Assembly: GCF_029760895.1 (NCBI RefSeq)
Contig: NZ_CP121679.1
Span: forward strand, 4,446,001 to 4,510,000
Direction of reading: 5' to 3'
Length of the DNA stretch: 64,000 nt
From: Ancylobacter sp. WKF20
Lineage (GTDB): Bacteria; Pseudomonadota; Alphaproteobacteria; Rhizobiales; Xanthobacteraceae
Shown here: in pieces, positions 6,731 to 51,147 of the stretch
Numbering within the stretch: position 1 is the first letter of the stretch
Layout: each line of letters begins with the position of its first letter
Program-made: the position numbers and the translations under genes
The notes under the pieces: model-generated
Databases searched by the model: none
The model's input: the letters and a program-made list of their open reading frames with translations, nothing else
What the model was told of the DNA's origin: nothing

Positions 6731-7744
6731 TCAGAAGAGGTATTCCTTGTAGTTCGCCTTGTCGGCCAGGACCATGCCGTTGCCGATGATCAGCACGCCG
6801 ACGCCCGGACCCTTGGTGACCTTCACCTTCTCATAGCCGGGCACGCCGAGATTGGCGCCGTCCTCGATCTTCTTGCCGGCGATCAGGCTCTTGGCGACCG
6901 AGTTCATCGCCATGCCGGCCTTCTGCGGATCCCAGAAGCCGATGGCGGTGATGGCCCCGGACTCCAGCAGGTCCGCCGAGGGGTTGGGCAGGCCGGTGCC
7001 GACCAGGCACACCTTGCCGGAGAGGCCGGCCTCGTCGATGGCACGGCCGACGCCGAGCACGTCATTGCCGGCCGAGGTCTGGAAGCCCTTGATGTCCGGA
7101 TGCTTGCGCAGGATTTCCTTGGCCTTCTCATAGGTGGCGTTGGCGTCGTCGAAGGACTCGTTATTGGCGTCCACCAGAACCATGTCCGGGTGCTTGGACT
7201 TGGCATTGGCCTCGCCCGCGCCGACCCACTGCATGTGGGTGCGGCTGCCGACCGAGCCGACGAAGGTGGTCCACTTGCCCTTGCCGCCCATGCAGGTGGC
7301 GAGGCGCTCGTTCAGCGCGCGGCCGTAATCGGCATTGTCGAAGGCCTCGACATCGGCGTGGGTGTTCTTCTGGTTGTCGGCCTCATGGGTCACGACGATG
7401 ATCCCGCGGTCCATGGCGCGCTTCAGCGTGCCTTCCAGCACGGACGGGTCCATCGGCACCACGGCGAGACCGTTCACGCCCTTGGCGACGAGATCGTTGA
7501 CGATCTGGAGCTGCTGGGCCGCGTCGGCGGTGGCCGGGCCATACTGGGTGGCGACGACGTCCGGGTTGTCCTTCTGGAACTGCTTGACGCCGGTTTCCAT
7601 GCGGTCAAACCACGGAATGCCGCTGATCTTCACCACGGTGGCAATGACCGGCTTGTTCTGCGCCATCAGCGCGCCGGCCGAGCCGGCGACGAGGGCGAGC
7701 GCCACGGCGGAGCCGAGCAGCACCTTCTTCGAGAGAGCTCCCAT
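6731..7744 (-). CDS. Periplasmic sugar-binding protein, RbsB/RhaS-like
   Basis: 337 residues. A Sec signal peptide (MGALSKKVLLGSAVALALVAG..., cleavage near LMAQNK) is followed by a type-I periplasmic-binding fold with KISGIPWFDRMETGVKQF at the start and repeated ADVEAFDN, TSAGNDVLGVG and GFWDPQKAGMAM segments typical of the COG1879 sugar/AI-2/rhamnose binding proteins. ATG 7744 has GGAGGA six bases upstream. The gene sits between the two permease/ATPase blocks of the dhaK-dhaL operon and would be its most abundant product. Ligand unknown; a tetrose, triose or polyol would fit the downstream kinase. Confidence 0.83.
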   Translation of the reverse strand: MGALSKKVLLGSAVALALVAGSAGALMAQNKPVIATVVKISGIPWFDRMETGVKQFQKDNPDVVATQYGPATADAAQQLQIVNDLVAKGVNGLAVVPMDPSVLEGTLKRAMDRGIIVVTHEADNQKNTHADVEAFDNADYGRALNERLATCMGGKGKWTTFVGSVGSRTHMQWVGAGEANAKSKHPDMVLVDANNESFDDANATYEKAKEILRKHPDIKGFQTSAGNDVLGVGRAIDEAGLSGKVCLVGTGLPNPSADLLESGAITAIGFWDPQKAGMAMNSVAKSLIAGKKIEDGANLGVPGYEKVKVTKGPGVGVLIIGNGMVLADKANYKEYLF

Positions 7745-9292: not shown

Positions 9293-10405
9293 ATGACCCG
9301 CAAGTCCTTCACCATCCGGGACATCGCCACGGCCGCGGGGGTTTCGCCGGCCACGGTGTCGCTCGTGCTCAACGGCAAGGGCGAGATCTCGGCGGATACG
9401 CGCACCCGCGTGCTGGAGGCCGCCGCGCGGCTGAACTATGTGCCGCGCCTCGTGCGGTCCGGTCCGGCCAAGCCACGCACGGACGGCGCCGGGACGATCC
9501 GCTTCCTCAAGATCGCCCGCCACGGCCACACGGTGAACCGCGACCACAACGTCTTCATCTCCGACTATATCGACGGCATGTCGGCCGAGGCGACGCGGCG
9601 GGGCTACACGCTGGAAGTCGTCACTCATGAGGGCCAGAGCGCCAGCGCCATCGCCGAAAGCCTCGCCTCCGCCCCGGCCAGCGGGGTGATCGCGCTCGGC
9701 ACCGAAATGTCGGAGACCGATATTCGCGTGCTGCAGGGCGTGGGCCGGCCCATCGTGTTCATCGACACGTTCTTCGACGTGATCGAGGCCAATTTCGTCA
9801 ACATGAACAATGAGGATGCCGTCCATCAGGTGCTGGCGCGGCTGCGCCAGCAGGGCTTCCGGCGCCTCGGCTTCGTCGCCAGCCCGGTCGACACGACGAA
9901 TTTCCGGCTGCGGCAGGAGGCGTTCCACCGCAACATGGCGCGCCTCGGCGTGCCCGTGGACCCCGCCCATATCCTCGCCGTCGAATCCACGCTCGACGGC
10001 GCCTACGCCGATGCGGTGGCGGCGCTGACGCGGGGCATCGCGCTGGCGGACGCCTATTTCTGCACGAATGACGTGATCGCCTATGGCTTCATCAAGGCGC
10101 TGCGCGAGTTCGGCGTCCGTATCCCCGAGGATGTCGGCGTGGTCGGCTTCGACAATCTGCCGGTCGGCGCGACCATGGACCCGGCGCTCACCACCATCGA
10201 CGTGTCGAAGCGCAAGATCGGCAATCTCGCCGTCACCGTGCTGGACGATCTCATCCACGCCGCCGAGCCGCCCCCGCCGGTGAAGATCATGGTCGGTGCC
10301 CGCCTGGTGGCGCGGCTGAGCGACCGTGGCCCCGCCGATCCGCGCCCGGTGCCGACCGCCGTGCGCCGGCGCGGCATCACCGAAACGGCATCAGGTTCCC
10401 GATGA
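9293..10405 (+). CDS. LacI-family transcriptional regulator of the ABC-dhaKL locus
   Basis: 370 residues. An N-terminal LacI helix-turn-helix (TIRDIATAAGVSPATVSLVL, about residues 5-24, plus hinge helix) is followed by a periplasmic-binding-protein-like effector domain ending near residue 345. It is divergent from the ABC-dhaKL operon, and overlaps the next gene by four bases (ATGA), so it is co-transcribed with the racemase-like and aldo/keto reductase genes. It probably represses both arms through the TTTAGTAAA elements, with a sugar or phosphorylated ketose as inducer. The C-terminal 25 residues are Pro/Arg-rich and look like an unstructured tail. Confidence 0.85.
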   Translation: MTRKSFTIRDIATAAGVSPATVSLVLNGKGEISADTRTRVLEAAARLNYVPRLVRSGPAKPRTDGAGTIRFLKIARHGHTVNRDHNVFISDYIDGMSAEATRRGYTLEVVTHEGQSASAIAESLASAPASGVIALGTEMSETDIRVLQGVGRPIVFIDTFFDVIEANFVNMNNEDAVHQVLARLRQQGFRRLGFVASPVDTTNFRLRQEAFHRNMARLGVPVDPAHILAVESTLDGAYADAVAALTRGIALADAYFCTNDVIAYGFIKALREFGVRIPEDVGVVGFDNLPVGATMDPALTTIDVSKRKIGNLAVTVLDDLIHAAEPPPPVKIMVGARLVARLSDRGPADPRPVPTAVRRRGITETASGSR

Positions 10406-39625: not shown

Positions 39626-40267
39626 ATGCGCCAGATCATCGAAGAACGCACCGGTAGCTATTCGCGCCACGCCGCCGCGCCGGAGACGCATACCGGGCAT
39701 CTGCGCGTGGCCCCGCATGTCACCGTGCTGCATGAGGGCGATACCGCCCGCCGCATCATGGAAGTGGTGGAAGGCGCGGTGATGCTCACCAAGCTGCTGC
39801 CGGACGGGCGCCGCCAGGTGGTCGAACTGCTCGGCCCCGGCGACGTGTTCGGCCTCGCGGCCTGCGATGTCTATGCCTGCTCGGCGGAGACGCTGACCGC
39901 CGCCGTCATCACCACCCATGACCGGGGTGCGCTGGAGCGTGACCCCATGCTCGCCGCCCGCCTGCTGCGACGCTTCGAGGCGCAGCTCTGCGCGATGCAC
40001 TCCCACGCGCTGGTGCTCGGCCGCATGTCGGCGCTGGAGCGCGTCGCCTTCTTTCTGCTGCGGCTGATGCCGGAGGGTGTCGTCGGCGGCACGCTGCACC
40101 TGTCCATGACCCGGCAGGAGATCGCCGACTTCCTCGGGCTGACGCTGGAAACCGTCAGCCGCGCCTTCTCCGAGCTGAAGCGCCGGGGTCTGGTCGCGCT
40201 GCTGCGCGCGGACGAGGTGCAGATCAATGATCGCGGCAGCATGCGCCGCCTTGCCGGCGCCGCCTGA
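39626..40267 (+). CDS. fixK: Crp/Fnr-family regulator FixK
   Basis: 213 residues: cyclic-nucleotide-binding-type beta-roll (about 20-135) and a Crp helix-turn-helix near residue 165-190 (MTRQEIADFLGLTLETVSRAFSELKRRG), whose E-xxSR recognition helix reads the TTGAT half site. The N-terminal cysteine cluster of FNR is absent, as in FixK. It relays FixLJ oxygen signalling to microaerobic genes such as hemN. GGAGG precedes the ATG. A bidirectional terminator follows. Confidence 0.87.
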   Translation: MRQIIEERTGSYSRHAAAPETHTGHLRVAPHVTVLHEGDTARRIMEVVEGAVMLTKLLPDGRRQVVELLGPGDVFGLAACDVYACSAETLTAAVITTHDRGALERDPMLAARLLRRFEAQLCAMHSHALVLGRMSALERVAFFLLRLMPEGVVGGTLHLSMTRQEIADFLGLTLETVSRAFSELKRRGLVALLRADEVQINDRGSMRRLAGAA

Positions 40268-40368: not shown

Positions 40369-41685
40369 TCAGACCGCGACCGAGTGCCGGGCGCCGGCCT
40401 GCAGCCGCGCGTCGAGGGCGGCGGCGGCGAGACGGACGAAAGGCCGGCCGAACGACGTCATGGCGATGCGCTTTCCCTCGATCTCCAGCAGCCCGTCCGC
40501 CACCAGCGGGGCAAGGCGCGGGGCGGCCTCGGCCAGCGTATAGGCGTCGAGATCGACCGCGAGGTCGCACATCAGCCGCTCGATCAGCGCGCCGCGCTTC
40601 ACATCATCCGGTGTGAAGGCGATGCCGCGCACGGTGGAGAATCTTCCGGCGTCAATCGCGCGGATGTAGGAGGCGGAATCCGGGGCGTTCTGGGTGAATC
40701 CCTGCGGCAGCCGGCTGATCGCCGACGCGCCGAGGCCGATGAGCGCATCGGCCGCGTCGACCGTGTAGCCCTGGAAGTTGCGATGCAGCCGCCCCGCCGC
40801 CGCCGCGACCGCCATCGGATCGTGCGGACGCGCAAAATGGTCAAGCCCCACAGGTACATAGCTGGCCGCCACCAGAACCTCCCGCGCGGCTTCCGCCTGG
40901 TCGAGGCGGGTGGCGGCGCCGGGGAGGGCGGTCTGGTCGATGAGTTTCTGATTCGGTCGCACCCACGGCACATGGGCGTAGCCGAACAAAGCGAGCCGCT
41001 CGGGCGCGAGCAGCGTGGCGAGTTGCGCGGTGCGGCGCACATCGCGCTCGGTCTGGTGCGGCAGGCCGTACATCAGATCGAGATTGACCGCGCTAACCCC
41101 CGCTTCCCGCACGAGTTTCACCGCCCGCTCGACCGTGCCGAAGGGCTGCACGCGGCCAATGGCGGACTGCACATGGACGCTGAAATCCTGCACGCCGAAG
41201 CTCACCCGGTCGACCCCGATGGCGCCCAGCGCATCGGCGAGGGCCTCGTCGGTCTCGCGCGGATCGAGTTCGATGGCGTGTTCGATCAGGCCAGTGAGAT
41301 CAAACTCGTCATTGATCCGGTCGAACAGGCGCTTCAGCGCTTCCGGCCCGATCAGGCTCGGCGTGCCCCCGCCCCAGGCGATGTGCGTGACCGTCCTCCC
41401 GCCGGCCGCGGCGGCGACGAGGCCGATCTCGCGCTCCAGCCGCGCGGCATAGGCGGCGACCGGCGCGGGCCGGCGCGTCGCCTTGGTGGTGCAGCCGCAA
41501 TAGTAGCAGAGCGAGGGGCAGAACGGGACGTGGAGGTAAAGCGACAGCGTCGCGTCTTCCGGCAGCGCGGCGAGCCATTGCGCGTGCTCGCTCGCCCCTA
41601 TGGCACCGGAGAAATGCGGCGCCGTGGGGTAGGAGGTGTAGCGCGGAACCGCGCGCTCGGCATGGAAGAGAGCTGAACTATGCAT
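40369..41685 (-). CDS. hemN: Oxygen-independent coproporphyrinogen III dehydrogenase
   Basis: 438 residues, a radical-SAM enzyme. The 4Fe-4S cysteines are C56, C60 and C63 in FCPSLCYYC, followed by the HemN-specific GCTTKATR and the SAM-binding WGGGTPSLI. It converts coproporphyrinogen III to protoporphyrinogen IX without oxygen, so it is needed in microaerobic growth. ATG 41685 (MHSSALFHAERAVPRYTSYPTA) is the conserved start. An FNR/FixK-like box lies 35 bases upstream, fitting control by the adjacent fixK. The order fixLJ-K-hemN places heme synthesis under oxygen control. Confidence 0.92.
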   Translation of the reverse strand: MHSSALFHAERAVPRYTSYPTAPHFSGAIGASEHAQWLAALPEDATLSLYLHVPFCPSLCYYCGCTTKATRRPAPVAAYAARLEREIGLVAAAAGGRTVTHIAWGGGTPSLIGPEALKRLFDRINDEFDLTGLIEHAIELDPRETDEALADALGAIGVDRVSFGVQDFSVHVQSAIGRVQPFGTVERAVKLVREAGVSAVNLDLMYGLPHQTERDVRRTAQLATLLAPERLALFGYAHVPWVRPNQKLIDQTALPGAATRLDQAEAAREVLVAASYVPVGLDHFARPHDPMAVAAAAGRLHRNFQGYTVDAADALIGLGASAISRLPQGFTQNAPDSASYIRAIDAGRFSTVRGIAFTPDDVKRGALIERLMCDLAVDLDAYTLAEAAPRLAPLVADGLLEIEGKRIAMTSFGRPFVRLAAAALDARLQAGARHSVAV

Positions 41686-41733: not shown

Positions 41734-41791
41734 ATCCCCCGCCCGCTACGCATTCGCGCGTAGTCCTCCCGCGCGCCGTTCTCCTCGTTCC

Positions 41792-42919
41792 ATGCCGCTG
41801 ATTCCAAAGCTCTCGCGTCCCGGCTATTCCCCTCGCGACTTCCTGTGGTGGGCCCTCACCCTCGCCCTCGCCTTTGCCGGCGGCGCGCTGTTCGCTGGCG
41901 TCGGCATGCCCGCCGGCTGGCTGTCGGGCGCGCTGGTGGCAACGGCGGTGGCGGCGCTGTTCGGCGCGCCGGTGGGCGTGGAAAGCAATGTGCGCGTGGT
42001 CACCTATGTGCTGCTTGGCACCTCCATGGGCTCGGCCATCACGCCCGAGACGCTGCACGGCCTGTCCACCTGGCCGGTGACGATGGTGGTGCTGCTCGTC
42101 TCCGTGCCGGTGATGATGCTGGCGGTGACGCTCTATCTTGAGAAGGTCGCCGGCTGGGACCGGCGCAGCGCCTTTTTCGGCGCCGCGCCCGGCGCGCTCT
42201 CCACCGTGCTGATCATGGCGGAAAGCTCGGGGGCGGATACGCGCCGCGTGGTGTTCAGCCAGTCCTTGCGGCTCTTCGTGCTGGTGGCGCTGCTGCCGGC
42301 GGCGCTGGGCGGGCTTGGCCATCAGCCGGCCGGCACGCTGCCGATCAACCCGGTGGTGCCGGACTGGACCAGCTTCTTTCTTTCCATCGGCGTCGGCGTG
42401 CTCGGCGCCTTCCTCGCGGAGAAGGCGCGTTTTCCCGGCGGCACCATGGTCGGGGCGATGCTGGCGAGCGGCGTCGTTCACGGCGCCGGGCTGATTGAAG
42501 GCCGGCTGCCGGATCTCCTGCTGATCGTCAGCTTCGTCATTCTCGGCGCCAATTCCGGCAGCCGCTTCGCCGGCACCAAGGCGCAGACGCTGCGCCGTTT
42601 CTTCATCGACGCGCTGGGCGCGCTGGTGGTCGCCATCGCCATTTCGGTCGCCTTTTCGGCACTGGGGGCGTGGCTCTCGGGCGAGCCGCTGGCGAAGGTA
42701 CTGGTGGCCTATGTGCCCGGCGCGCTGGAGGCGATGACCATCATGGCCTTCGTGCTCGGGCTCGATCCGGCCTTCGTCGCCGCGCACCACCTTGCGCGCT
42801 TCGTCGGGCTGGCGCTGCTGATCCCGGTGATCGCCCGGCTGTTCTTCGGCCCGCCGGTGGCGCCGGTCGTCTCCGAGGATGAGGCGCCGCCGCTCGACGA
42901 GAGCGAGCCGAAGGACTGA
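41792..42919 (+). CDS. AbrB-family integral membrane protein (putative transporter)
   Basis: 375 residues, ten or so hydrophobic segments arranged as two similar halves, with the family motifs GMPAGWLSGALVATA and FFGAAPGALSTVLIMAE and FPGGTMVGAMLASGVVHG. The AbrB/COG3180 family is often mislabelled ammonia monooxygenase; its real function is unclear (regulator-like or small-molecule exporter). Divergent from hemN and convergent with hemA. ATG 41792 is the conserved start; the upstream in-frame stretch is Arg-rich and non-conserved in character. Confidence 0.78.
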   Translation: MPLIPKLSRPGYSPRDFLWWALTLALAFAGGALFAGVGMPAGWLSGALVATAVAALFGAPVGVESNVRVVTYVLLGTSMGSAITPETLHGLSTWPVTMVVLLVSVPVMMLAVTLYLEKVAGWDRRSAFFGAAPGALSTVLIMAESSGADTRRVVFSQSLRLFVLVALLPAALGGLGHQPAGTLPINPVVPDWTSFFLSIGVGVLGAFLAEKARFPGGTMVGAMLASGVVHGAGLIEGRLPDLLLIVSFVILGANSGSRFAGTKAQTLRRFFIDALGALVVAIAISVAFSALGAWLSGEPLAKVLVAYVPGALEAMTIMAFVLGLDPAFVAAHHLARFVGLALLIPVIARLFFGPPVAPVVSEDEAPPLDESEPKD

Positions 42920-42983: not shown

Positions 42984-44225
42984 CTATTCGGCCGCTTGCG
43001 CCTGCGCGACGAAGGGCAGGCCGAGCCGGGTCCACACATCCACCAGCGCGCTCGCCAGATGCGCCACCAAGGCATCGTCATGGAACGGGCCAGGGGTGAT
43101 GCGCAGCCGCTCCGTGCCGCGCGGCACGGTGGGGTAGTTGATCGGCTGGATATAGATGCCGTGGTCTTCCAGCAGCATGTCGCTGGCGGCCTTGCAGGCG
43201 GTGGCATCGCCCACCATCACCGGCACGATATGGGTTTCGGTCACGACCTGCGGCAGGCCAGCGCGGTCGAGCGCACGCTTGACCTTGGCGACCTGCGCCT
43301 GCTGGCGAGCGCGTTCAGTGCCGGAATTCTTGAGGTGACGCACCGAGGCCGCCGCCGCGGCGGCGACCGCCGGGGGCAGGGCGGTTGTGAAGATGAAGCC
43401 CGGCGCGTAGGAGCGCACGGCATCGACCACCGCGCCGCTCGCGGCGATATAGCCGCCGACCACGCCAAACGCCTTGCCCAGCGTGCCCTCGATCACATCG
43501 ACGCGGTGCATCACCCCGTCGCGCTCGGCAAGGCCGGCGCCGCGCGGGCCATACATGCCGACGGCATGGACCTCGTCGAGATAAGTCATCGCGCCATAGC
43601 GCTCGGCGAGGTCGCAGATCGCGCCGATGGGGGCGACATCGCCATCCATCGAATAGACGCTCTCGAACACGATGAGCTTGGGCCGATCGCCGGCGGCGCG
43701 CAGCAGCTCTTCGAGATGGGCGAGGTCGTTATGGCGAAAAACCTGCTTGTCGCGGCCCGCCTGGCGCACGCCCTCGATCATCGAGTTATGGTTCAGCGCA
43801 TCCGACAGGATGAGGCAGTCGGGGATCAGCTTGGCGAGGGTGGAAATGCCGGTCTGGTTCGACACATAGCCGGAGGTGAAGACCAGCGCGCCGTCCTTGC
43901 CGTGCAGGTCGGCAAGTTCGGATTCCAGCTCGACGATGGCGTGGCTGTTGCCGGAAATGTTGCGCGTGCCGCCCGCGCCCGCGCCGGCCTGCCGGGCGGT
44001 GGCGCACATGGCCTCGACCACGCTCTCATGGCAGCCCATGCCGAGATAGTCGTTCGAGCACCAGATGACGATGTCGCGGGCGCCTTCCGGCGTGTGCCAC
44101 ACCGCATGGGGGAAGCGGGCGGTGTCGCGCTCGATCTCGGCGAAGGTGCGGTAGCGCCGCTCGGTCTTGAGCGTCTCGACGGCGGTCTCGAACAAGCGGG
44201 CGTAGTCGGAAGGTGCGTAAACCAT
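42984..44225 (-). CDS. hemA: 5-aminolevulinate synthase
   Basis: 413 residues, the alphaproteobacterial ALAS (Shemin pathway): condenses glycine and succinyl-CoA to 5-aminolevulinate, the first step of tetrapyrrole synthesis. Visible are the [10 protein letters not shown] start motif, the glycine-binding [12 protein letters not shown], the [14 protein letters not shown] site and the Schiff-base lysine K251 in [13 protein letters not shown] 44225 has GGAG nine bases upstream; an in-frame ATG six bases earlier is too close to that site. Together with hemN and fixLJK it makes a heme/oxygen block. Confidence 0.93.
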
Positions 44226-44358: not shown

Positions 44359-44865
44359 TCACGTCTCCGCGAGCGCGCGCACCTGCGCCAGCGTCAGCGG
44401 CAGGGAAGTGCGGCCGTCGAAATAGACGAAACGCAAGGTTTTCCGGCGGGAGGTCATGGCCGCCGGCAGCGGGTCATAGCGGAAGGTTCCCCCGCCCAGA
44501 TGCGGCATGACCGCGCCGACATCGGTGGTCTCGCTGGTCTCGACGCGCAGCAGGCTCACCCGCACGCCCTCCGTCGTCACCGCGTCGAACGGCACGCGGG
44601 CAAGGCGCAGGAAGCTCGTCGGATCGCTCGCGCTGGCGAAGCTTTCGACGAACGCTTTCTCCACCAGATCGAGATCGGGCTCGACATGGACATGGTCGTC
44701 CGCCTCGGGCGGCTCCGGCAGATGCGGCGTCTGCCACTGCGCCGTGCGGCGCGGGCCATGGCCGTGATTATGGCCGGCGCTGTGGGCATGGGCGTGCGAC
44801 TCGGCGTGCGCGTGGGAGCGGCCTCCCGCGCCATGGTCGTGATGATGGTCGTGCCCGCGATGCAT
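44359..44865 (-). CDS. Histidine-rich protein downstream of the guanidine hydrolase gene
   Basis: 168 residues. The first 37 contain 15 histidines in HD/HA/HG repeats (HRGHDHHHDHG, SHAHAESHAHAHS, HNHGHG), a typical Ni/Zn-binding tail. The rest (EPDLDLVEKAFVESFASASDPTSFLRLARV... to VRALAET) is a compact alpha/beta domain I do not recognise. GAGGAG precedes the ATG. It lies after the guanidinase gene on the same strand, with a 120-bp palindromic repeat between. Since guanidinase needs nickel, a nickel-storage or delivery role is attractive, but only context and composition support it. Confidence 0.65.
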   Translation of the reverse strand: MHRGHDHHHDHGAGGRSHAHAESHAHAHSAGHNHGHGPRRTAQWQTPHLPEPPEADDHVHVEPDLDLVEKAFVESFASASDPTSFLRLARVPFDAVTTEGVRVSLLRVETSETTDVGAVMPHLGGGTFRYDPLPAAMTSRRKTLRFVYFDGRTSLPLTLAQVRALAET

Positions 44866-44884
44866 GGCGGTGCTCCTCAAGAGT

Positions 44885-45004
44885 GTCGTCATCCCGGATG
44901 CAGCGCCCATCGGGCGCGGAAATCCGGGATCGCGCGCCGAAAGCGGCGCCCTTTGTCCTGGCCGCGATCCCGGATCGGCCCGGTGGGCCGTCCGGGATGA
45001 CGAC
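44885..45004. repeat. Extragenic palindromic repeat, type A
   Basis: Starts GTCGTCATCCCGGA and ends TCCGGGATGACGAC, with internal inverted AATCCGGGATCG / CGATCCCGGATCGG arms. About 120 bp, no ORF of its own. The same element recurs at 49555, 51058 and 55966. Related in form to alphaproteobacterial RIME/RPE elements; here it separates the guanidinase and His-rich genes. Confidence 0.8.
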
Positions 45005-45013
45005 AATGGCGCT

Positions 45014-46234
45014 CTAGAAACTCACCGGCTTGTCGATGATGTGCTTGTGGCTGCCGAGCTTGCCATGGGCGAGCATGGAGCCGAGCGCTTCCACCACCAC
45101 GCGGGTGCCGAACAGGGCGGTGATGTCCGAGGTGTCGTAGGGCGGGGACACTTCCACCACTTCAAGGCCGCACAGCCCCTCGGCGGCGACCAGGCCAAGA
45201 ATCTTCAGCGCCTCGCGCGGCAGGAAGCCGCCCGGCTCCGGCCAGCCGGTGCCCGGCACGAAGCCGCAGTCGATGCTGTCCACGTCGAAGGAGATATAGA
45301 CCGCGTCGGCGTCCTTCCAAGCGAGTTCGAGGGCGATCTCGGCCGCCTTCTCAAGACCTATCTTCTCGATGTCGTCGATAGTCAGCACGTTGGTGCCGCG
45401 CTTGCGGGCCTCCTGCACGCCGTAGCGCGGAACCTGCCAGCCGCCAATGCCGAGCTGGACCAGGTTCTTCGGCGAGACGTTGGGCAGGTTCGTCGCCCAG
45501 TACCAGGGCGTGGTGTGCATGCGCTCATCGAGATCCTTTTCCTGGATGTCGATGTGGCGGTCGAAATGGATGATGCCGATGCGCTTGGAGGTGCATTCGG
45601 CGATGCCGCGCACGCAGGGGAAGCCGATCGAATGGTCGCCGCCGAGCATGATCGGCAGCGCGCCCGACGAGAAGACGTGGCTGACGCCCTTGGAGATCTG
45701 GTCGAAGCTCTTTTCCAGATTCGCCGGAATGGTGAACACGTCGCCGACATCGCACAGCGTCATCTGCTCGCGCAGGTCGACGCCGAGTTCGTAATTATAG
45801 GGCGTGTAGAGCGCGGAGATGCGGCGGATGCCCTGCGGCCCGAAGCGCGTGCCCGGCCGGTAGGTGGTGCCTGAATCGAAGGGAATGCCCATGACGGCGG
45901 CGTCGTATTTGCCGACATCGCGGACATTCTCGACGTAAGGGGCCTTCATGAAGGTGTTGATGCCGGCGAAATGCGGCAGCTCGCCGCGCGCGAAGGTCGG
46001 GATCGACTTGTCGTTGATCGATTCCGCGCCGGGCAGGCCCATGTCGAGGGCCCATTGCTGCTCGCGGCGCCAGCCATCCTCGGAGAGCTTCTCCTCGGAT
46101 TCCAGCGCCTTCCAGCCCTGCGTTCCCTTGATCTCGAAATTGGGGTGGTGGCGGCGGGCGCGGTCCGGCGTGCCGGCAAGGCCGGCGATGCGGTGGGCGC
46201 GGGTGGGATGGGCGCGGCTGGAATGGGAACGCAT
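45014..46234 (-). CDS. gdmH: Nickel-dependent guanidine hydrolase (ureohydrolase superfamily)
   Basis: 406 residues of the arginase/agmatinase fold with an N-terminal extension of about 85 residues (to HFAGINTFMKAPYVEN). Metal ligands are H201 (GGDHSIG), D225/H227/D229 (HFDRHIDIQ) and D317/D319 (FDVDSIDCGF). Agmatinases have DAHTD; the DRHIDIQ form and GWPEPGGFLPREA are marks of the guanidinase group shown in cyanobacteria to split guanidine to urea and ammonia with Ni. A guanidine-I riboswitch in the leader supports this over agmatinase. AAGGAGAG precedes ATG 46234. Cytoplasmic. Confidence 0.88.
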   Translation of the reverse strand: MRSHSSRAHPTRAHRIAGLAGTPDRARRHHPNFEIKGTQGWKALESEEKLSEDGWRREQQWALDMGLPGAESINDKSIPTFARGELPHFAGINTFMKAPYVENVRDVGKYDAAVMGIPFDSGTTYRPGTRFGPQGIRRISALYTPYNYELGVDLREQMTLCDVGDVFTIPANLEKSFDQISKGVSHVFSSGALPIMLGGDHSIGFPCVRGIAECTSKRIGIIHFDRHIDIQEKDLDERMHTTPWYWATNLPNVSPKNLVQLGIGGWQVPRYGVQEARKRGTNVLTIDDIEKIGLEKAAEIALELAWKDADAVYISFDVDSIDCGFVPGTGWPEPGGFLPREALKILGLVAAEGLCGLEVVEVSPPYDTSDITALFGTRVVVEALGSMLAHGKLGSHKHIIDKPVSF

Positions 46235-46268
46235 CCGGCGTCTCTCCTTGCGATCAGTCCTTCGGCAC

Positions 46269-46341
46269 GACCGCACCCTGTGGCGGCGCGGTCCATTCTG
46301 CGAGGAAGTCTCGGAGGAGGCCTGAACTGCGAAAGGCCTCC
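46269..46341 (-). promoter_or_regulatory. Hairpins between riboswitch aptamer and gdmH start
   Basis: Two inverted repeats follow the aptamer: GGAGGCCT/AGGCCTCC (46334-46341 with 46316-46323, perfect 8-bp stem, 10-base loop) and GACCGC/GCGGTC (46288-46293 with 46269-46274). No T-run follows either, so control by transcript folding near the ribosome site or by Rho is more likely than a classical intrinsic terminator. Confidence 0.5.
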
Positions 46342-46361
46342 GCCGCGATCCCGTCGCGCGA

Positions 46362-46490
46362 GCCTCCCGGGCTTTTGTCCCGCCGTGGACCCGGCGCATG
46401 TGGTGGGACGCATCCCGCCGCCGGGCTGTCCCTCTCGGACCAGCCGCGCCAAAGATGCATGATCTTGCGGCGCCGGAACCCTAGGGACAT
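46362..46490 (-). ncRNA. Guanidine-I (ykkC) riboswitch aptamer
   Basis: Read on the minus strand, the leader contains, in order, CCCTAGGGTTCCGG (46486-46473), GGTCCGAGAG (46441-46432) and GGGACAAAAGCCCGGGAG (46381-46364). These are the three most conserved blocks of the guanidine-I riboswitch (CUAGGGUUCCG, GGUCCGAGAG, and GGGA-AAAAGCCCGGGAGA-type end) with the usual spacing and a variable stem between. It ends about 130 bases before the guanidinase ATG, so guanidine should switch that gene on. Confidence 0.93.
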
Positions 46491-46563
46491 TTTTCAGGAT
46501 AGAGGGGCTCCCGGCGGACCGGAAGCCCGGATTCTGGTCAGCGACCGCTGAAAGTTTCGGCGC

Positions 46564-47181
46564 TCAGATCACGCCGGTCAGCAGGCCGACGCCAATCAGC
46601 GCGACGCCCGCGCCGAGCGCCTGGGTGAGGCGCGGCGCGCGGGCCGAGCCGATCAGCGTGCCGAGGCCGATGCCGGCCATGTGCAGGAGAGCCGTGGCCA
46701 GCATGAAGCCGGCGGCATAGGCGAGGCTAGATGCATCCGCCGGCATTTCCGCGCCATGGGCGTGGCCGTGGAAGATGGCGAACACGCCGACCACCGCCAT
46801 GGCGGCGCCGAGCGGCCAGTTCTTCCAGCCGAGCGCTACCGCCCCGCCGAGCACGACGATGGAGAGGGTGATGCCGAGCTCGACGAAGGGCACGTCGATG
46901 CCCGCCATGCCGAGGAAGCCGCCCAGCGCCATCAGCGCGACGAAGGTGGCCGGTACCGCCCAGATCGCGCGCCCGCCGAGCTGCGCGGCGAAGATGCCGA
47001 CGGCGACCATGGCGAGCACATGGTCGAGCCCGCCGACCGGGTGCATGAAGCCGTGCACCAGCCCGTCGGCCTCGCCATGGCCGGTGTGGGCGAAGGCGAG
47101 CGAGGGGACGAGGGCGAGCGCGCCGGCAAACGTGGCGCGGACCAGAGCGAGCCGGGAGAATTTCGGGGCGAGGTTGGACAT
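46564..47181 (-). CDS. hupE: HupE/UreJ-family nickel permease
   Basis: 205 residues. A cleaved signal peptide (to LAFAHTGHG) precedes six membrane segments. The family metal motif HPVGGLDHVLAMVAVG (residues near 48-63) and a second FHGHAHGAEMP are present. HupE/UreJ proteins bring Ni into the cell for hydrogenase or urease; here no such genes are visible, but the Ni-dependent guanidinase follows on the same strand. The gene lies upstream of the riboswitch, so it is either expressed separately or reads through into it. ATG 47181 has AGGGAAC upstream. Confidence 0.85.
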   Translation of the reverse strand: MSNLAPKFSRLALVRATFAGALALVPSLAFAHTGHGEADGLVHGFMHPVGGLDHVLAMVAVGIFAAQLGGRAIWAVPATFVALMALGGFLGMAGIDVPFVELGITLSIVVLGGAVALGWKNWPLGAAMAVVGVFAIFHGHAHGAEMPADASSLAYAAGFMLATALLHMAGIGLGTLIGSARAPRLTQALGAGVALIGVGLLTGVI

Positions 47182-47355: not shown

Positions 47356-48033
47356 CTACTTCGTGCCGAAGATGCGGTCGCCGGCATCGCCGATGCCCGG
47401 CACGATATAGCCGTGGTCGTTGAGGTGGCTGTCCACGGCGGCGGTGTAGACGGTAACGTCCGGGTGCGCGTCGTGCAGCGTCTTCAGGCCCTCGGGCGCG
47501 GCGATCAGGCAGACGAACTTGATCGACTGGCAGCCCGCCGCCTTCACCTCGGATACCGCCGCCGCCGCCGAATTGCCGGTCGCCAGCATCGGGTCGAGCA
47601 CGATGGCGGTGCGCTCGGAAATGTCGCGCGGGAGCTTGAGATAATACTCGACCGCCGCCAGCGAGACCGGGTCGCGGTAGAGCCCGACATGGCCGACGCG
47701 CGCCGCCGGCAGGATTTCCAGCATCCCTTCGAGAATGCCGCCGCCGGCGCGCAGCACCGAGACGAGGCAGAGCTTCTTGCCCGCCACCACCGGCGCCATC
47801 ATCGTTTCCAGCGGGGTCTCGATCTCCACCAGCTCCAGCGGCATGTCGCGCGTCACCTCATAGGCGAGCAGCATGCTGATCTCCCGCAGCAGCAGGCGGA
47901 ACTCGTTCGCCGGCGTGCGCGAGCGGCGCATCAGGGTGAGCTTGTGCTGGATGAGCGGGTGATCGACCACCACGGTGGTCGGCGGCAGCTCGCGGGTGGC
48001 GGAGGAGGGCGTAACCGGTGTGGGCGCGTTCAT
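47356..48033 (-). CDS. upp: Uracil phosphoribosyltransferase
   Basis: 225 residues. The PRPP-binding loop [16 protein letters not shown] and the uracil-binding C-terminus [16 protein letters not shown] are intact; the [13 protein letters not shown] stretch matches UPRTs. It makes UMP from uracil and PRPP. In yeast, UPRT (URC6) with URC1 and URC4 is required for the URC route of uracil breakdown; the divergent genes here are URC1 and URC4 homologues, so this enzyme likely works in catabolism as well as salvage. The 232-bp divergent spacer to URC1 must hold both promoters. Confidence 0.92.
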
Positions 48034-48265
48034 GGGCGGCGAACTCGTGTGCAAGGGGCGTGGCGGGTTCGGCGGACGCCGACAGGCCAGCCGCCAGCTT
48101 CCCACAGCGTAGCGGAAAGCGCGACGGTCGATACAAGAATCGGACCAGTTCGTCTGAAATTTTTTGCGCCGACCCCCATCACCCCCTTGCGGAGCGGCGC
48201 GAATGGCGCTCACATTCAGTGCTTCCCGAGAGCCGGCGCCCGGCCGGACGAGAAGCGAGCTGCCC

Positions 48266-49534
48266 ATGTCCGTCAATGCCAATGCAGGCGGTCGTCCCCG
48301 CAACCACATCGTTCTCACCTCGCATGGCGCGCCCACCGGCGTTGCCGCCGGCGGCCCCGTCCTGAACTGGGGCGCCCCGACGCCGGCCGAGCGCGGTCCC
48401 GTCGTCGCCACCCTCACCGATCCCAAGCACCGCAACGCCATCGGCGCCCATGCCGGCGGCTATTCGGTGTACCGTGCGCTGGCCATTGCGGCGGGCGCGC
48501 TGCCGGCGGATTTCCGCGCCGACCTGACAAACACCGCGCCGTCCGACGCCATCGGCCCGCACCCGCAATGGGGCGATGCCGGCAAGATCGTCTCGCTCGA
48601 TCCGTGGGGGCACCTCACCGGCGAAGTCTTTGGCGCCGAGCTGACGGCGGGCATGGATGTGCGCCCGAGCATCGCCATCACCCGCGCGCATATCGACATG
48701 CCGGAAATCCGCGACGCGCTGCGCGCCGGCCGTCTGCAGGTCGATGGCGACATTATCGGGCCGAAGGGCGATGTGCGCGTCACCAAGGCGGCGATCGAGC
48801 CGGTCTGGTATCTGCCGGGCATCGCCGAGCGTTTCGGCGTCGCGGAGGGCGCGCTGCGCCGCGCTTTGTTCGAGCACACGGGCGGCATGTTCCCGGAACT
48901 GGTCACGCGCGGCGACCTCAAGGTGTTCCTGCCGCCTATCGGCGGCATGACGCTCTATATGTTCGGCGAGCCCTCGCGCATCGGCGACGGCGTCACTCCG
49001 CTCGCCTGCCGCGTGCATGACGAGTGCAACGGCTCGGACGTGTTCTCCTCCGACATCTGCACCTGCCGGCCCTATCTCGCCCATGGCATCGAGATGTGCG
49101 TGGAGATGGCGCAGAAGGGCGGCGTCGGCCTCGTGGTCTATAACCGCAAGGAAGGCCGGGCGCTCGGCGAGGTGACGAAGTTCCTCGTCTACAATGCCCG
49201 CAAGCGGCAGGAGGGCGGCGACCTGCCCGACACCTATTTCAAGCGCACCGAATGCGTCGCCGGCGTGCAGGACATGCGCTTCCAGGAACTGATGCCGGAC
49301 GTGTTCCACTGGCTCGGCATCACCCGCATCGACCGCTTCGCCTCGATGAGCGACATGAAGTTCAACGCCCTGCAGCGCGCGGGCATCGAGGTGATCGAGC
49401 GCGTGCCGATCCCCGCCGAGCTGATCCCGCCCGATGCCCGCGTCGAGATGGAGGCCAAGGTCTCCGCCGGCTATTACGGCGTCGGCTTCGAGAGCCAGTA
49501 CGACGCCACGCAGGGCCGGGCGCTGGAGGAGTGA
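48266..49534 (+). CDS. GTP cyclohydrolase II-like protein of uracil catabolism (URC1 family)
   Basis: 422 residues. The C-terminal half is a GTP-cyclohydrolase II fold: zinc ligands in [20 protein letters not shown] (Cys-x10-Cys-x-Cys) and the [18 protein letters not shown] catalytic stretch (RibA: EGRGIGL-NK). The N-terminal ~170 residues ([30 protein letters not shown]) are specific to the URC1 type and absent from RibA. In the yeast URC pathway this protein acts on the UPRT product, giving ribosylurea-type intermediates. It is followed by URC4 (DUF1688) after a repeat, so a riboflavin role is unlikely. Confidence 0.85.
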
Positions 49535-49554
49535 GGGGCTGGCTTCCCGCGGCT

Positions 49555-49647
49555 CGTCATCCCGGACATGGCGCAGCCATGAGCCGGGATCGCTCCCGAG
49601 CTTTCCTGCGATCCCGGATCGGGCCGCTGGCCCGTCCGGGATGACGG
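49555..49647. repeat. Extragenic palindromic repeat, type A
   Basis: CGTCATCCCGGAC at the left and GTCCGGGATGACG at the right, with inner GAGCCGGGATCGC / GCGATCCCGGATCG. About 93 bp, between the URC1 and URC4 genes. A fragment of the second repeat type (CTTGACCCGGGGATCC) follows at about 49689-49722. Confidence 0.8.
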
Positions 49648-49800
49648 TTTCTTTCCCACCTGCGCGTCGCCGCTGATCGCGTGTTTCCCTCATCCCCAGG
49701 CTTGACCCGGGGATCCATGGCCGGGAGCGCCCGGTCGTTTCGTCCCCTGGATGGCCGGGTCCCGCTCGCCCATGAGGGATTGCCAGAAGAGACTGACAGC

Positions 49801-51030
49801 ATGACCCCGCCCGAACTTCTCGCCCTGCGCTCCCCGGCCGCCGTGCGGGCGCGCTGCCATAGCGTGCTCGACCATGTGCTGGCCGGGCACTCGCCGCATT
49901 TCACCGTCGACGAGGGCGCGCTCGCGGAGGTCGCGGACTATGTGGCCGAGGTGACGCGCGCGGATTATCCGACGCTCGACATCCCCTATCACAGCCGCTG
50001 GCGGCATTTCGCGGCGGGCGGGGTCGACCGCTGGGCGGCGCTGGAGGCGGAGCTGGGCGCCATTGAGCCGGCCGAGCGCGCCCGCATCATGATCGACCTC
50101 GCCATGGTCAGCGTGCTGCTCGACGCCGGCGCCGGGGATGCCTGGCGCTACCGCGAGGCGGAGACCGGGCTCACCGTCACGCGCTCGGAAGGGCTGGCGG
50201 TGGCGAGCCTGCGCATGTTCGAGGCGGGCGGCTTTTCCTCCGATCCCGCGCAGAAGCTGCGGGTCGACGCGCCCGCTCTCATCGCGCTCGCTGCCGGCAC
50301 GCTCGGCGTCTATTTCCAAGTGACGGCCGACAACCCGCTGGTGGGGCTGGAAGGGCGCGCCTTGCTGCTGAACCGGCTTGGCCGGGCGCTGGCGGCGCGG
50401 CCGGACCTGTTCCGCGACGGCGCGCTGCGGCCCGGCGGGCTTTATGACGCGCTGGCGCCCACCGCCAAGGTCGGCCGGCTGCCCGCCGCCGCCATCCTCG
50501 AAGCGCTGCTCGACGCCTTTTCGGTGATCTGGCCGGCCGGGCTTGAGGTGGACGGGCTGGCGCTCGGCGATGTCGGCCGGCACACGGCGATCACCGTGCC
50601 CGACCGTTCAGTCGGGCTGGTGCCGTTCCACAAGCTCTCGCAATGGCTGACCTATTCGCTCTTGGAGCCGTTCGAGGCGGCGGGCCTCGCCATCACCGAT
50701 CTCGACGCGCTGACCGGCCTGCCGGAATACCGCAATGGCGGGCTGCTGGTCGATCTCGGCGCCATCGTGCCGCGCCATCCCGTCGACCCCGCGCAGAAGC
50801 ACGCGGTCTCCTCCGAGATGATCGTGGAGTGGCGGGCGCTCACTGTGGCGCTGCTCGACCGGCTGGCTGACCCGGTGCGCGAGCGGCTGGGGCTGGAGGC
50901 GGCGGATTTCCCACTCGCCAAGATGCTGCAGGGCGGCACCTGGACAGCGGGGCGCCGCATCGCCGCGACGCGCCGCCCCCCGGCCGGCCCGCCGCCCATC
51001 GCGATTGATGCGGACGGGACGGTGTTCTAA
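49801..51030 (+). CDS. URC4/urg3 family protein (DUF1688)
   Basis: 409 residues, mostly alpha-helical, cytoplasmic, no signal. The DUF1688 pattern is clear (YHSRWRHFAAGGVDRW, LRMFEAGGFSSDP, LTYSLLEPFEAAG, LDALTGLPEYRNGGLLVD). The fungal member, URC4/urg3, is essential for uracil degradation through UMP, but its chemistry is not settled. ATG 49801 has GAAGAGA upstream; the longer open frame from 49681 runs through a repeat and is not used. It completes a bacterial URC set with upp and the URC1 homologue. Confidence 0.88.
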   Translation: MTPPELLALRSPAAVRARCHSVLDHVLAGHSPHFTVDEGALAEVADYVAEVTRADYPTLDIPYHSRWRHFAAGGVDRWAALEAELGAIEPAERARIMIDLAMVSVLLDAGAGDAWRYREAETGLTVTRSEGLAVASLRMFEAGGFSSDPAQKLRVDAPALIALAAGTLGVYFQVTADNPLVGLEGRALLLNRLGRALAARPDLFRDGALRPGGLYDALAPTAKVGRLPAAAILEALLDAFSVIWPAGLEVDGLALGDVGRHTAITVPDRSVGLVPFHKLSQWLTYSLLEPFEAAGLAITDLDALTGLPEYRNGGLLVDLGAIVPRHPVDPAQKHAVSSEMIVEWRALTVALLDRLADPVRERLGLEAADFPLAKMLQGGTWTAGRRIAATRRPPAGPPPIAIDADGTVF

Positions 51031-51057: not shown

Positions 51058-51147
51058 CGTCATCCCGGACGGCCAACGGCCGATCCGGGATCGCGCGCAA
51101 GGTGGTTGGCGATCCCGGCTCTGCGCTGCGCTTCGGCCGGGATGACG
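51058..51147. repeat. Extragenic palindromic repeat, type A
   Basis: CGTCATCCCGGACGG to CCGGGATGACGG, with inner CGATCCGGGATCG / GCGATCCCGG. About 90 bp, between the convergent URC4 and tctC genes, where it could act as a terminator hairpin. Confidence 0.78.

Follow-up and report, generated by a model that had tools for sequence, protein, structure and literature searches.

The 64,000-nucleotide stretch of Ancylobacter sp. WKF20 analyzed here (the window; NCBI RefSeq assembly GCF_029760895.1, contig NZ_CP121679.1, positions 4,446,001 to 4,510,000) carries on its minus strand a small group of genes that appears to be devoted to guanidine. Read 5' to 3' on that strand, the order is a HupE/UreJ-type permease, a guanidine-I riboswitch, a ureohydrolase, and a histidine-rich protein, here called the partner. 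The partner belongs to a conserved, unannotated protein family that is locked to guanidinase. We think it somewhat probable that the riboswitch turns on a nickel guanidinase together with this partner, and that the partner captures nickel and hands it over to the enzyme, as HypA and HypB do in cyanobacteria.

The genome that holds the window comprises 4.63 Mb in a single contig, and a scan of named genomes places the closest named relatives of the guanidine locus in Ancylobacter. The enzyme and the riboswitch belong to known kinds, while the partner represents an unannotated family that is apparently undescribed. The literature searched gave no description of a His-rich guanidinase partner, with an earlier remark in Funck 2022 or Nelson 2017 being possible.

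A histidine-rich protein paired with guanidinase

The partner (44359-44865, minus strand) has 168 amino acids. Fifteen histidines were counted within its first 50 residues, just as the original prediction had said of the protein that follows the enzyme; the whole chain has 18 and no cysteine. The protein matched no family in Pfam or NCBIfam, and thus neither the HypA nor the HypB model (PF01155, TIGR00073). One database gives the partner of A. radicis the name DUF2470. This name was set aside, as a Pfam scan of the A. radicis protein was empty.

Structure prediction divides the chain in two. The tail (residues 1-48, 44722-44865, minus strand) scores low in the predicted local distance difference test (pLDDT) and is predicted to be disordered. 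The core (residues 67-165, 44371-44667, minus strand) is predicted with confidence to fold, its blocks having mean pLDDT values of 81-96. A fold search found no credible solved relative for this core, which does not establish that its fold is new.

The case for the partner rests on the company that it keeps. Here, 297 genomes of the order were searched with the partner core and, at E <= 1e-60, with the enzyme. The partner was found in 31 and the enzyme in 35, with all 31 partner genomes inside the 35. In every one of the 31, the partner immediately follows the guanidinase on its strand. The gap between the two runs from -8 to 477 nt and is shorter than 20 nt in 22 of the 31, figures that depend on start codons chosen by the analyst. 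All 31 partners place between 8 and 23 histidines in their first 45 residues. The tail is variable in both length and sequence; the core is more conserved.

Wider samples gave the same picture. A scan of a named collection with the 31-row partner alignment gave 137 relatives, of which 80 were kept; at 79 of these 80 loci the partner comes straight after a guanidinase gene of the same orientation. A phylum sample had the enzyme in 7 of 398 genomes, four of them new, and these four all have the partner. In a class sample of 385 genomes, 14 had a match to the enzyme and 13 to the partner; the 11 enzymes with at least 72 percent identity all adjoin a partner, and three at 56-60 percent (G661, G710, G722) are without one. 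These samples overlap, with four genomes recurring among them (G000, G077, G229, G543). Plasmids contributed 11 records with the enzyme. Seven were fetched, and the partner was present in the three from Alphaproteobacteria and in none of the four from Actinobacteria. The annotated plasmid order is binding protein, permease, ATPase, guanidinase, partner.

Three exceptions to the pairing were found. In Jiella endophytica (L164) the partner lies some 7 kb from the guanidinase, on the opposite strand. In G981 (L268, about 9658-9894) a partner remnant sits behind a fragment of an importer binding protein, in a different frame, and in G763 (L269, about 7103-7348) a partner fragment has an internal stop; no guanidinase was found in either of these two, which account for the other partner matches of the class sample. 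All three look like rearranged or decayed units, the last two being alternatively faults of assembly.

A tree of 45 enzymes places the 35 that bear a partner on one side of a single branch (support 99/98), which fits a single acquisition of the partner. The Synechocystis enzyme adjoins this clade weakly (82/47). The tree left out the truncated L077, L086, and L091, and its root is for drawing only. A mirror-tree comparison gave r = 0.82, a value reached in none of 5000 permutations; within subfamilies, r was 0.70 in the first and 0.22 in the second. The correlation is not taken as proof, of course, as shared ancestry by itself raises r.

So fixed a pairing, with gaps so short, would also be expected if the partner were a subunit of the guanidinase with a structural or regulatory role, its binding of metal being secondary. 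The confidently folded core suits such a role, and metformin hydrolase is described as requiring two subunits (PMC11399263, in part). The homologous enzymes from Synechocystis and Nitrospira inopinata, however, were solved without such a subunit, as a homohexamer (PMC11410670, in part). Further, a subunit role would leave the His-rich tail, found in 31 of 31, unexplained. We consider this role quite improbable.

The enzyme and its riboswitch

The enzyme (45014-46234, minus strand; 406 amino acids) is a predicted nickel-dependent guanidinase of the GdmH type. It matches the Pfam Arginase family (PF00491) with 256.5 bits. Its best solved relatives are 7esr/7oi1, at 550 bits, and 9fek, at 525 bits; the next, a guanidinobutyrase, scores 180 bits. 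Over the aligned part it is 66 percent identical to the Synechocystis enzyme and 61 percent identical to the N. inopinata guanidinase, which are the enzymes of 7OI1 and 9fek, respectively (PMC11410670, in part).

The enzyme has the sequence FDRHIDIQ and all six of the metal ligands expected, the latter being residues that we take to be metal-binding from the general pattern of the ureohydrolase family. The motif had been offered earlier as the metal site of a nickel-dependent guanidinase. The motif is indeed there, but DxHxD is general to ureohydrolases and is, alone, no mark of nickel; assignment to the GdmH type stands instead on the relatives just named and on a signature of three residues.

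That signature, described as necessary in a guanidinase, is Thr, His, and Trp at positions 105, 222, and 313 of the N. inopinata enzyme (PMC11410670, in part). Mapped by alignment to the solved guanidinase, with an inferred chain-numbering offset of two, these are T124, H240, and W331 in the window enzyme. In an alignment of 37 enzymes (the window, two references, and 34 loci), 33 keep the Trp, comprising the window enzyme, the two references, and each of the 30 loci with a partner. The four partner-less loci have T (L092-L094) or S (L095) at this position. The Thr is found in 36 of the 37; L091, which is truncated, has an alignment gap there instead. All 79 guanidinases that adjoin a partner in the named collection have the Trp.

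The four enzymes of L092-L095 (54-58 percent identity, no partner) are probably not guanidinases, because T or S replaces the Trp; they may act on a different guanidino compound. Their genomes contain no guanidine-I riboswitch (0 of 4), and in L095 a HupE-like gene is directly downstream of the guanidinase-like enzyme. Of the partner-less enzymes in the class sample, G722 likewise has T at the Trp position, and the stretch available for G710 stops short of the motif.

A covariance search confirmed the guanidine-I riboswitch that had been suspected ahead of the ureohydrolase. The match to RF00442 (46362-46495, minus strand) covers model positions 1-107 and scores 88.6 bits against a gathering threshold of 63; it is the only guanidine-I match in the entire genome. 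From the aptamer to the start codon runs a leader (46235-46361, minus strand) that contains the ribosome binding site and folds no better than its shuffles (z -0.33).

Whole-genome searches found the riboswitch in 30 of the 31 partner genomes, G031 being the only one to miss it, and in all four of the phylum-sample genomes. A scan of 12 Ancylobacter-type loci found it in all of them, as did one of 12 other loci hand-picked from the 80. Of the 30 riboswitches, 26 are on the contig of the guanidinase, no more than 5 kb upstream. The other four (G215, G232, G214, G072) are on a different contig, with the guanidinase near a contig end; as the contigs are separate, the link between riboswitch and enzyme is assumed in these. 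A scan of short flanks (mostly 1.5 kb on each side) around 31 loci, one of which was the partner-less L094, gave the riboswitch at one locus only (L033), as if other genera lacked it. The whole-genome search overturned this. So short a flank is inadequate, because in A. gelatini (L134) the riboswitch lies ahead of genes for an ATP-binding cassette (ABC) importer.

From these matches we infer that the riboswitch senses guanidine and controls the unit, and that the enzyme hydrolyzes guanidine to urea and ammonia in a nickel-dependent way. The alternative is an agmatinase, or an enzyme for some other guanidino compound, in a unit that does not serve guanidine. Database labels lean this way: the highest-scoring NCBIfam models are those for agmatinase, with scores under their cut-offs, and plasmid records call the relatives "agmatinase family protein". 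Against these labels stand the presence of the riboswitch in nearly all partner genomes, the Thr/His/Trp signature, and the fact that both nearest solved relatives are guanidinases. This alternative therefore seems very remote.

Possible routes of nickel loading and guanidine import

In cyanobacteria, the riboswitch operon holds hypA and hypB together with the enzyme (PMC8390497, PMC10119275, each in part), and GdmH is said to require accessory nickel proteins (PMC12186494, PMC11271267, each in part). HypA and HypB were sought in the 35 enzyme-bearing genomes, a few of which are incomplete (G204, 74 percent; G232, 82 percent). The original prediction saw neither helper at the locus; the whole window genome gave no match to HypA, and none to HypB over the family cut-off. 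HypA was found in 9 of the 35 genomes (7 of the 31 with a partner) and HypB over its cut-off in 8 (6 of the 31). Both are absent from 24 of the 31 partner genomes, including that of the window. By coordinates, no HypA or HypB is near the guanidinase in any genome, the nearest on a shared contig being some 255 kb away (G010).

HypB matches under the cut-off are probably of the UreG type. That in the window genome (67.9 bits) is about 3 kb from the gene for urease alpha, which lies elsewhere than the guanidine unit. Urease alpha was matched with at least 60 bits in 30 of the 31 partner genomes, and other nickel chaperones are thus likely to be present in them. The guanidinase might then be supplied with nickel by the urease chaperones or by the general pool of the cell, with the partner serving as a buffer or store for nickel, in the manner of Hpn, so that the metal is available, or rendered harmless, during expression of the unit. 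The UreG-type match and a tail so free to vary in length and sequence are both compatible with this. A general store need not, of course, pair with the gene for one enzyme, yet the pairing here is near strict. Nor would a store lead one to expect a core more conserved than the tail. A role in storage is accordingly judged unlikely.

This returns us to delivery of nickel by the partner. The suggestion that the His-rich protein replaces HypA and HypB draws support from comparative evidence, namely the pairing and the 24 genomes that lack both helpers. Several points weigh against it. His-rich tails also bind Zn, Co, and Cu. No tie of sequence or fold connects the partner to any known nickel chaperone, and 7 of the 31 partner genomes do carry HypA. 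The absence of HypA and HypB shows only that these cannot be the loaders in the 24 genomes. Three of the four partner-less actinobacterial plasmid guanidinases keep the signature Trp. Metformin hydrolase is reported to be active in vitro without chaperones, the same source stating that the knock-out failed to grow on metformin (PMC11271267, in part). N. inopinata makes an active guanidinase, no chaperone for it having been found; PMC11410670 calls the mechanism of loading unclear. Together, the Trp-bearing actinobacterial enzymes without a partner and N. inopinata without a known chaperone mean that a loader may not be needed everywhere.

The HupE/UreJ-type permease that had been placed ahead of the enzyme is well recognized (46564-47181, minus strand; PF04955, 195 bits against a cut-off of 23). 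As it lies 5' of the riboswitch, it is not under riboswitch control. A HupE gene is found at 39 of the 80 named loci, and in 32 of these 39 it is downstream of the partner. The window unit, further, has no genes for an ABC importer. Thus, the earlier description of a complete module with its own metal supply is not supported: the importer is missing, and HupE, present at fewer than half of the loci, is no part of the riboswitch unit.

Elsewhere, such importers are common. At 57 of the 80 named loci the guanidinase is preceded on its strand by an ABC permease, and at 56 by a binding protein. The permease is found at 56 of the 63 loci outside the Ancylobacter group and at one of the 17 inside. 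That one is A. gelatini (L134, 1543-5762), where the importer lies between riboswitch and guanidinase, unlike the 16 other Ancylobacter-type loci; the pattern may reflect loss inside Ancylobacter, or gain. A related binding protein (49 percent) is encoded at 3.14 Mb in the window genome, adjoined by what the analyst reads as ABC-type permease and ATPase frames, with no guanidine-I riboswitch there. On a plasmid of Rubrobacter indicoceani (L224, 4980-11128), a Trp-bearing guanidinase stands beside genes for a sodium:solute symporter, formamidase, and urease, and the stretch has neither a partner nor an annotated hyp gene; this would be another route for import and for metal loading.

Other genes surround the unit. 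Adjoining it at 47356-51030 are genes for uracil phosphoribosyltransferase, a PRK07198-type GTP cyclohydrolase II, and a DUF1688 protein, which we take to be URC genes of uracil catabolism. Because the URC pathway likewise gives urea, two urea-producing nitrogen routes may adjoin here. Downstream of the partner, the same strand encodes 5-aminolevulinate synthase at 42984-44225 and a radical-SAM HemN-like protein at 40369-41685. Two genes of the plus strand lie in this stretch too, one for a Crp/Fnr-type regulator (39626-40267), the other for an AbrB-family membrane protein (41786-42919). Exact copies of a 13-base palindrome-like element, CGATCCGGGATCG, stand at 44965, 49609, and 51081, and less exact ones are close by (44920-44977, 49580-49621, 51081-51122). 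Its first copy falls between guanidinase and partner. Allowing two mismatches gave 14 matches where 9.7 were expected, and the element is therefore no commoner than chance by this count.

Known systems and the place of the partner

The mechanism that we propose would run as follows. On binding guanidine, the leader RNA would permit expression, and guanidine would be hydrolyzed to urea and ammonia by the guanidinase. The tail of the partner would capture Ni(II), which the core, docked to the enzyme, would transfer. Urea would then pass to the urease encoded elsewhere in the genome. HupE, from outside the switched unit, may increase the supply of nickel.

The GdmH operon of Synechocystis (sll1077, the HypA/HypB-type GhaA/GhaB, and an ABC importer) shares with the window its guanidine-I control and a homologous guanidinase. 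Its importer is shared with most of the alphaproteobacterial relatives, where it precedes rather than follows the enzyme, but not with the window's own unit. In the position of hypA and hypB, the window has one His-rich gene. The unit of N. inopinata is like that of the window in having a guanidine-I riboswitch, a homologous guanidinase, and no HypA/HypB; it differs in having an APC permease and no known dedicated nickel-loading protein (PMC11410670). The operons for metformin/dimethylguanidine hydrolase likewise place HupE, in Hyphomicrobiales, near a nickel-dependent ureohydrolase (PMC11399263, in part). Those enzymes, however, have two subunits, come with hypA and hypB, and match the window enzyme with only some 130 bits.

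For the partner itself, the likeness is one of general description. CooJ, which serves carbon monoxide dehydrogenase, is also small, has one end rich in histidine (16 His), and is encoded together with a single nickel enzyme, and its mutants are reported to require added nickel for growth on CO (PMC6006190, in part). It differs in that its tail is C-terminal and its enzyme is another. By analogy, the partner fits the pattern of CooJ-like and Hpn-like proteins, small and with a dense stretch of histidine, and its tail may bind nickel.

A broader proposal is that the partner is the founding member of a new, enzyme-dedicated family of nickel metallochaperones, in which one small protein has displaced HypA and HypB for guanidinase across Alphaproteobacteria. 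The features behind this are the lack of a match to any NTPase family, the disordered His tail, and a core without a recognized solved relative. We would give this proposal an even chance.

How guanidinases outside the cyanobacteria are loaded with nickel is a question to which the partner brings a conserved candidate, tied by gene to the enzyme in many Alphaproteobacteria, Bradyrhizobium, Mesorhizobium, and Sinorhizobium/Ensifer among them. The combination of riboswitch, signature Trp, and His-rich partner offers a genomic marker for guanidinases among genes named agmatinase. If the proposed role is true, the partner would be a new kind of nickel-delivery protein, and guanidinases would be loaded with nickel without chaperones of the hydrogenase type. 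Full activation of guanidinases for the removal of guanidine could then become possible.

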